Shown here: positions 11,602 through 13,447 of the stretch, one piece after another
Layout of the letters: every line of letters starts with the position of its first letter
Position numbering within the stretch: position 1 is the stretch's first letter
NCBI GenBank assembly: GCA_022340465.1
Contig: JAJDNW010000060.1
Span: 1 to 50,038, forward strand
DNA: 50,038 nucleotides
Reading direction: 5' to 3'
Origin: Deltaproteobacteria bacterium
GTDB lineage: Bacteria > Desulfobacterota > Desulfobacteria > Desulfobacterales > B30-G6
Notes under the pieces: generated by a model
The model's input: the letters and a program-made list of their open reading frames with translations, nothing else
Databases searched by the model: none
What the model was told of the DNA's origin: nothing
Position numbers and translations under genes: made by a program

Positions 11602-11928
11602 TTACGCCTGCTGGCGATCGATTTTATTTAAAACGATCCTTTTTTTGTCAAAGGTGATTTCGAACTGATCGCCGGGGTGAAAAATTGAATCTTCGATACG
11701 CGTTTTCGGGATAATGATCGAATTTTGACTGAATCTGACGATCTTCGGGTGGGGTTTGTACAGTCCTTTGATTGCCGACGGGTTCTCGAGTCTGTTGGTA
11801 TACGTCAGCTTGGCGACCCGAGTCTGCAGCGTTTTCAGCGTGATGTCGGTCTTCTCGCAGATCCTGTCTGCGTTCATATACTCCTTGATTATCTTCAACA
11901 GTGCCTTATCTGAAATTTTAGTCGCCAT
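11602..11928 (-). CDS. small DNA-binding protein with AbrB/MazE-like C-terminus
   Basis: A 108-residue protein. Residues ~1-50 are helical and could be a helix-turn-helix (KISDKALLKIIKEYM, then CEKTDITLKTLQTRVAKL). Residues ~62-105 (RFSQNSIIIPKTRIEDS, then GDQFEITFDKKRIVLNKI) match the swapped-hairpin pattern of SpoVT/AbrB/MazE proteins. GGAGG stands about 5 bases before the ATG. It follows the 57-codon gene at 12013-12186 on the same strand with an 84-base gap, so the two may be a unit. Base composition is lower in GC than the neighbours. Probable transcription factor; target unknown. An antitoxin role is possible, but no toxin gene is seen. Confidence 0.65.
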   Translation of the reverse strand: MATKISDKALLKIIKEYMNADRICEKTDITLKTLQTRVAKLTYTNRLENPSAIKGLYKPHPKIVRFSQNSIIIPKTRIEDSIFHPGDQFEITFDKKRIVLNKIDRQQA

Positions 11929-12012
11929 TCACCCTCCACAGCAAAAAAAACGACCCTCCTCATAGAGCCTTGTGTCCAGCTCTGACGCCGAGCGACCGCC
12001 GATGAAAGTCAA

Positions 12013-12186
12013 CTAAGATATTGATTCAAATGTTCTGTCAATATCTTTCGCAATTTTATAAATAAATTTATTTCCATCAAAATCACGGCTTATGTACTCT
12101 ATATCAAATTCATCAAAACTGTCAAGTTCATCAATAAAGGATTTACAATCAACATCATAATTAAAGTTTTCATTTAATAGTTTCAT
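12013..12186 (-). CDS. hypothetical acidic 57-residue protein in an AT-rich island
   Basis: Reading the minus strand from the ATG at 12186 to the TAG at 12013 gives 57 codons: MKLLNENFNYDVD, an acidic middle (FIDELDSFDEFDIEYI), then ISRDFDGNKFIYKI and a C-terminus of RTFESIS. It has about 15 acidic and 7 basic residues and no membrane segment. AGGAG lies 8 bases before the start, strong for so AT-rich a stretch. A TTGACA (12245-12240) and a TATAAT (12253-12248) occur upstream on the same strand. The codons are AT-rich, unlike every large gene in the window, which suggests transfer. No family recognised. Its small size, charge and position before an AbrB-like gene would fit an antitoxin or phage-type modulator, but that is a guess. 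Confidence 0.55.
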   Translation of the reverse strand: MKLLNENFNYDVDCKSFIDELDSFDEFDIEYISRDFDGNKFIYKIAKDIDRTFESIS

Positions 12187-12350
12187 GATATATCTCCTAT
12201 ATTGATAGTTTGAATCCTTTAATCATATATTTTTATATATGTCAAGTATTATAAGTTTTTATTTAATATTTTTGATTTTAATATTAAATTTTAGCATTAA
12301 AATTTTTAATGATATATTAAAATTAACAATCTTTATTCGATCATTTAAAA
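12013..12350. other. AT-rich island
   Basis: This stretch is visibly far richer in A and T than its surroundings, with runs such as ttaatatttttgattttaat. It carries the 57-codon gene and its upstream region and ends abruptly at about 12350, where GC-rich repeat DNA begins. It looks like foreign DNA or a deeply AT-rich regulatory region. Confidence 0.6.
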
Positions 12351-12471
12351 GCTAACCAGTTGGGCAACGTCAGAGGCATTGGGCTTGGCCACAACCAACT
12401 ATTCCGGAATACTGGAATATTGGGGTGTTGGCGTATTCGGAGGTCGGAGGTCGGGACTTAGGGTGAAGGTC

Positions 12472-12618
12472 GGGGAACAGAAGTCGGAAGTCTCACAGTT
12501 CACGGAATACGGCTCAGGGCTCAAGGTGCAGACCGCTCAACGCATGATGCTTTGAAATCGCCTTGCGCCTTGGGCCTTGCGCCATACGTTTTACGTTTCA
12601 CATCTTACATTTCACGAT
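12472..12618 (-). repeat. ~150-bp dispersed repeat B, right copy of inverted pair
   Basis: Reverse complement of 3943-4098 with high identity. Left of it, 12400-12470 is a purine-rich run of gg(a/t)gtcgg-like words. Right of it, 12618-12665 is a degenerate array of ttcacgtct/tcacgttt words that runs into the 3' end of the next gene. The whole 12187-12628 gap holds no other feature. Confidence 0.8.
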
Positions 12619-12628
12619 TCACGGCGTT

Positions 12629-13447
12629 TCACGTCTCACGTTTCACGTCTAACGCCTCACATTTACACGCCGTGGTGTCCTGAGGGGGGAGGTCGTTGTA
12701 GTCGAGCCGCGGCACATCGCGGTGCTCATATTCGAGCCGCAGGCGGAATTTTTCCACCTCTACCCTGCTTTCGAGGCTTTTTTTTGCCAGCAGATAGCGC
12801 AGGAAAATGATCAAAAGAAGCATGCCGACCAGGGTCATGGCCAACCCGAGGGCCGCCCATTTGTATGTGACGATGATTCGCAAGCCGGCTTTCCCGGCTG
12901 AAAGAAAAGCGTTCGGCAGCACCCAGTATGCCGCAGCCGCCAACAGGATCAATGCGCCCAGAACAAATATGTTGAAGCGGCTTATCGCCGTGAGCATGCG
13001 CTCGAATCCAGACAAGGGTGCGGCGCCGTTTTCGGTTCCTCGCTCCACAGGCCGACGGGGTGCGGCGAAAAGCGCCGACCACGCCCTCACGATGAACGCA
13101 AAAAGCAGGACCAGTCCAATTGGCATGCCAAAGGCGGCTGCAAACCACGCCCGGAATGGAAAGGGCTTGCGGTCGTTGTACATTCGCACCCGATACTGCT
13201 CCAGAGGGCCAAAGGTTTTTTCGAAGGATTGCCTGTCGACCTGCGAAAGGGTGCCGCCCTCCAGAACCAACACCACCTTCCCCGACTGGTCCGCTATCTG
13301 CAAGACGGGTTTGCGGCCGGCACGCATGGCCGCGATGGCAAAAATTTCGAGTTCAATCAGGAACAAGGCCACCATCACGATGATAAAAAGGGTGCGATGT
13401 GCCTTGATGGTGCCGAGGATGTTTTGATCAGCGCTCATGGGTGTCAC
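12629..13447 (-). CDS. membrane protein of the ABC importer operon, unknown function
   Basis: A 272-residue protein with four hydrophobic segments (residues ~20-42, ~105-125, ~160-180, ~193-222). An extracytoplasmic stretch after the first helix (QIADQSGKVVLVLEGG) carries a small repeat-like beta pattern. GTG at 13447 overlaps the stop of the ATPase gene by 4 bases; an ATG three codons later (13438) is the alternative start. It ends the importer operon and probably serves that transporter, though it is not a standard importer subunit. The last ~12 residues (CKCEALDVKRET) are encoded by the ttcacgtct-type repeat array, so the C-terminus was probably altered by repeat insertion. I do not recognise the family. 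Confidence 0.7.
   Translation of the reverse strand: MTPMSADQNILGTIKAHRTLFIIVMVALFLIELEIFAIAAMRAGRKPVLQIADQSGKVVLVLEGGTLSQVDRQSFEKTFGPLEQYRVRMYNDRKPFPFRAWFAAAFGMPIGLVLLFAFIVRAWSALFAAPRRPVERGTENGAAPLSGFERMLTAISRFNIFVLGALILLAAAAYWVLPNAFLSAGKAGLRIIVTYKWAALGLAMTLVGMLLLIIFLRYLLAKKSLESRVEVEKFRLRLEYEHRDVPRLDYNDLPPQDTTACKCEALDVKRET

Follow-up and report, generated by a model that had tools for sequence, protein, structure and literature searches.

A Conserved Gene for a Small Acidic Protein Beside an HTH-AbrB Regulator Gene in the Desulfobacterales, and Its Possible Role as a Modulator of the Regulator

A 57-Codon Gene in an AT-Rich Island

The DNA analyzed here, referred to as the window, is a stretch of 50,038 nucleotides from a Deltaproteobacteria bacterium of the order Desulfobacterales (contig JAJDNW010000060.1). 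The original prediction of a complete 57-codon frame at positions 12013 to 12186 was borne out: the frame runs from ATG to TAG on the minus strand (read 12186→12013), a strand that the prediction had not given. The product is a 57-residue acidic protein, MKLLNENFNYDVDCKSFIDELDSFDEFDIEYISRDFDGNKFIYKIAKDIDRTFESIS, with a pI of 4.15. It has 15 D/E versus 7 K/R residues, in line with the predicted charge counts. The ribosome-binding site AGGAG was also found as claimed (12194 to 12198, minus strand), although its distance from the ATG is 7 nt instead of 8. Farther upstream, on the same strand, there is a sigma-70-type promoter (12217 to 12245) that consists of TTGACA (12240-12245), a 17-nt spacer with a TGA end, and TTAAAG (12217-12222). 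TTGACA, the 17-nt spacer with its TGA end, a TTWWWW hexamer, and a GGAG-containing ribosome-binding site are common to all four loci described below, with the promoter at a nearly equal distance from the ATG in each.

The composition of the locus was said to differ strongly from its neighbors, and indeed the 400-bp bin at 12001-12400 has a GC content of 24%, whereas all other 400-bp bins of the window have values of 41 to 65% and the surroundings of the island are about 54% GC. Within 200 bp 5′ of the small-gene ATG, the GC content is 15 to 28%, including the non-coding DNA upstream of the promoter (12246 to 12354), which is part of the island at 12003-12354. The same type of AT-rich trough is present at all four loci, where it covers the small gene and about 100 to 200 bp upstream. 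The GC3 value of the small gene is 0.16 to 0.19 in all four copies, compared to 0.42 to 0.71 in neighboring genes. Because this low GC3 has been kept despite a synonymous divergence of at least 1.5, or saturated, in the neighboring genes of the congeners, the AT-richness of the locus is retained and not recent.

In dinucleotide shuffles of the island, an ATG-initiated ORF of at least 57 codons was obtained in 61 of 2000 cases. Therefore, the length of the small ORF is weak evidence by itself, and the decisive evidence for the gene is its conservation in three other genomes.

Near-palindromic AT-rich repeats located 5′ of the promoter (12283-12323) are candidate binding sites, and ATTAAAAAT-like text is found at a comparable distance in two congeners. 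Elsewhere in the window, a degenerate intergenic repeat at 12593-12654 (and about 12400-12660) contains ACGTTTCACGTCTC-like units next to the text gccttgcgccttgggccttgcgcc. The genome contains 11 occurrences of the string CACGTTTCACG, versus 2 of the reversed control. A tandem array at 20-252 has a 9/27-base unit, CTCAACGAA, in 25.9 copies of 9, and the AT and GC skew is strong at this array, which is at the edge of the window.

Homologs and Purifying Selection

When the genome that the window comes from was searched, a single copy of the small ORF was found. Orthologs that are 63 and 58% identical were found in two congeners, at the identical position and with the same flanking genes, and when 389 genomes from the order were searched with a profile, a 47% identical homolog was obtained in G204, a genome of another family. 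The carriers are thus four genomes (81 to 99% complete), all of the Desulfobacterales, and a phylum-wide sample of 345 genomes contained no additional member. These searches covered samples of each group, and the small ORF is known from these four loci. Weak single matches in other genomes of the order (E-values of 0.008 to 0.1) were rejected, as they were mostly within long unrelated frames or contained stop codons.

The congener sequences align over 57 codons with zero indels, the first 51 codons of the G204 sequence align gap-free, and none of the sequences contains a stop. The original prediction had named the lack of a conserved frame, or equal synonymous and nonsynonymous change, as evidence against a gene; instead, the homologs keep the frame, and the maximum-likelihood dN/dS values for the three congener pairs are about 0.07, 0.24, and 0.13. 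When the observed substitutions were placed at random, an amino acid identity at least as high as that seen was obtained in 0 to 2 of 5000 trials for the pairs W-G1, W-G204, and G2-G204, and in 4 to 22% of trials for the remaining pairs; a stop-free outcome was obtained in just 2 to 21% of trials. The small gene is under purifying selection, and the 57-codon frame is a real bacterial gene that was previously unnamed. Codon selection was considered as the reason for the lower dS of the small gene and set aside because the extreme AT bias alone limits synonymous difference.

Searches of the small protein against sequences of solved structures (PDB) gave zero matches at a meaningful E-value, and nothing scored meaningfully in Pfam, NCBIfam, or PADLOC. 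A weak likeness to DUF3970 (PF13113) over residues 16-49 (E = 0.092) was attributed to chance: the score of 13.4 bits did not reach the gathering score of 21.1, and the match was seen in one of three members tested, being absent in the two congeners. PHROG matches were at chance level, and there were no credible relatives in viral contigs and phages or in plasmids. The protein is probably helical, with the core motif FIDELDxFDEFD. An AlphaFold model was of low confidence (pLDDT of 54.5) and therefore was not used for a fold search.

The Adjacent HTH-AbrB Regulator

As had been claimed, the next gene on the same strand encodes an AbrB-like protein. This gene (11602 to 11928, minus strand) begins 84 nt downstream of the small gene and encodes a basic protein of 108 residues (pI 9.85), with an N-terminal helix-turn-helix followed by a putative C-terminal AbrB/SpoVT/MazE-like domain. 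Over the four loci, the regulators are 103 to 108 residues long with a pI of 9.7 to 10, the four small proteins have a pI of 4.0 to 4.2, and the two genes are separated by 84 to 184 nt. In the AlphaFold model of the regulator, the N-terminal helix-turn-helix is confident and the C-terminal part is of low confidence. The best Foldseek matches of the C-terminal part were 5itj, SpoVT, AbrB, and MazE, all weak, with E-values of 0.7 to 3, and the MazE_antitoxin profile gave an E-value of 0.0095, below the cut-off. Sequence profiles agree weakly with an AbrB-like fold. On the basis of these models, the C-terminus appears to be an AbrB/SpoVT/MazE (swapped-hairpin) domain. This would be the likeness to AbrB/SpoVT/MazE proteins, whereas the position of the domain after a helix-turn-helix is a difference. 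No Pfam model covers this combined architecture, and all matches were below curated thresholds.

The expectation that the small gene should always be found next to the AbrB-like gene held in all four genomes. Close copies of the regulator (E < 1e-57) are present in precisely the four genomes, among 389 of the order, that carry the small ORF, and a scan of the genome collection found the regulator only in small-ORF species, plus one spurious match (L035, Bacteroidales, 27% identity), which is a sensor kinase. In G204, the outer neighbors are different (one encodes a NUDIX protein, the other a putative membrane protein), and because both genes are nevertheless kept, the pair is a conserved unit. 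These observations establish that the small ORF is a gene and that it is linked to the regulator gene.

A terminator-like hairpin with a T run is located between the two genes of the window (11944 to 11969, minus strand). One such intergenic hairpin was found versus 0.6 expected from shuffles, and the other three loci have no terminator-like hairpin on that strand between the small gene and the regulator gene. With this hairpin in between, the two genes of the window may be transcribed either together or separately.

Relatives of the Regulator with Acidic Arms or Transporter Genes

A family found elsewhere in the phylum (f121; four genomes), which represents a sister branch, has the same regulator body, 32 to 38% identical, preceded by an acidic N-terminal arm and a linker. 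The arms have a pI of 4.05 to 4.18 on bodies with a pI of 9.0 to 9.6. We considered the small protein as a homolog of this arm because of an eye-catching ELDRF/WD motif, but the idea failed in most tests: 5 of 200 shuffles were equally good using hhalign, as were 86 and 117 of 1000 using Smith-Waterman, and HMM searches in both directions yielded no match. The resemblance was therefore kept as an analogy only. Downstream of the arm-bearing regulator, all four genomes (L037-L040) have a conserved lipoprotein-like gene, the product of which ends in GPWGPWGP.

The genes of a second, more distant HTH-AbrB branch (L030, L031/L049, L050, L051, and L053) are directly upstream of a putative BCCT-family transporter gene, a designation read from the sequence. 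These transporter-linked regulators have neither an acidic partner nor an arm, and their pI is 5.9 to 8.8. In a tree, a branch with 94/96 support has both the small-ORF and the arm groups on the same side, and the small-ORF group itself was not resolved. One genome (G086) has two tandem copies of the transporter-linked regulator, and in another (G191; L031/L049) the DNA before the regulator gene is also AT-rich, 17 to 21% GC in part.

Discussion

The reading that we favor, with a probability of roughly 45%, is that the small protein acts as an acidic antirepressor or modulator of the adjacent basic HTH-AbrB regulator, in the manner of Bacillus AbbA. The small protein, acidic and probably helical with its FIDELDxFDEFD core, would bind to the DNA-binding surface of the regulator and, as an antirepressor or DNA mimic, lift or tune the binding of the regulator to DNA. 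The regulator would bind AT-rich DNA, probably including the island 5′ of the small gene, and the action of the regulator on the island together with that of the small protein on the regulator would create a feedback loop. We infer the binding, the release from DNA, and the autoregulation; the gene, its promoter, the linkage, and the opposite charges are shown. The upstream AT-rich DNA (12246-12354) is a possible binding region for the neighboring regulator, and the AT-richness may be maintained by something that acts on the DNA itself, for example the binding of the regulator. In the f121 branch, the comparable acidic segment fused to the regulator N-terminus would have the same function inside a single polypeptide.

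The B. subtilis protein AbbA is an antirepressor of AbrB and binds it as a DNA mimic (PMC4238804). The small protein is similar in its functional pairing with an AbrB-type regulator, which is putative here. It is also small and acidic (pI 4.0 to 4.2 at all four loci), and the AbrB-type partner is encoded in the same genome, adjacent in 4/4 cases. A difference is that a search of PDB sequences detected no sequence relation between the small protein and AbbA. To our knowledge, AbbA is not an obligate neighbor of abrB, and its partner AbrB has no N-terminal helix-turn-helix.

The opposite charges (a pI of about 4.1 for the small protein versus 9.7 to 10 for the regulator) count in favor of the antirepressor, although acidic proteins are commonly encoded beside basic ones. 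Further points in its favor are the conserved frame and low dN/dS, the co-occurrence of the pair in the four genomes and its retention in G204, the acidic arms of f121, the grouping in the tree, the weak AbrB-like fold matches, and the AbbA precedent. Also counting against it are the failed tests of homology to the arm, the pLDDT of 54.5, the number of loci (four), and the hairpin in the window. A broader proposal, that the same acidic inhibitor exists either free (in this genus and in G204) or as a fused arm (in f121), with inhibition between or within chains and the AT-rich gene kept as a target of the regulator, is distinctly doubtful.

It is possible, although on balance unlikely, that the small protein is instead the effector of the locus, a peptide with a role in stress or physiology, for which the AbrB-like protein would simply be the local transcriptional regulator at the AT-rich promoter region, with no binding between the two proteins. 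This would fit with a small gene that has its own conserved promoter and AT-rich upstream region, and regulation of a neighbor is plausible for the regulator family because the neighbor in the distant branch is a BCCT-like transporter gene, a potential target of the regulator. However, none of the known effector domains match the small protein, and this model would explain neither the complementary charges of the two proteins nor the acidic arms in f121. A small frame on the same strand 5′ of the regulator gene, with a short 5′ UTR, could also be a leader peptide or regulatory RNA, translated or transcribed only for control of the downstream gene. We consider this improbable, because purifying selection acts on the amino acid sequence, the folding of the gap does not exceed that of shuffled sequences (z of −0.1 to −1.3), and neither an Rfam family at the cut-off nor an attenuator-like codon run was found. 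The same Rfam and folding comparisons led us to reject a riboswitch or other structured RNA between the two genes.

Two adjacent small genes, one with a MazE/AbrB-like domain, are reminiscent of a type II toxin-antitoxin system in which the AbrB-like protein would be the DNA-binding antitoxin and the small protein the toxin, or the reverse. This assignment is very improbable given the extra helix-turn-helix of the regulator, the existence of regulator relatives without any small partner gene, the long intergenic gap (84 to 184 nt), the lack of a match to toxin or defense models in Pfam, NCBIfam, or PADLOC or to a recognizable toxin family, and a locus that is syntenic within the genus with no credible phage or plasmid relatives. 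Of the roles that had been suggested originally, the regulatory one is thus retained as the best reading, and the antitoxin and anti-phage roles are unsupported, there being no family match at a meaningful score, no toxin-like partner, no viral or phage relatives, and no credible plasmid relatives. Recent acquisition of AT-rich foreign or phage DNA containing a chance frame would account for an island of 24% GC within DNA of about 54% GC, but it is extremely improbable: the position is orthologous in three congeners in which synonymous change of the neighbors is at least 1.5 or saturated, the GC3 of 0.16 to 0.19 persists in all copies, indicating that the composition is kept, and no viral or phage relatives were found. 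A chance frame was ruled out by the dN/dS values, the homologs from profile searches, and the random-substitution trials.

The gene described here is short enough, at 57 codons, to be easily overlooked in annotation, and yet it is under selection. It adds a small-protein family without a named relative to the HTH-AbrB regulator architecture. Because the AT-richness was kept over saturated synonymous divergence, the maintenance of local AT content by a regulator-binding region becomes testable. If the antirepressor reading is true, the pair would provide a compact system, open to experiment, in which an AbrB-like regulator outside of the Firmicutes is controlled by a small acidic protein.
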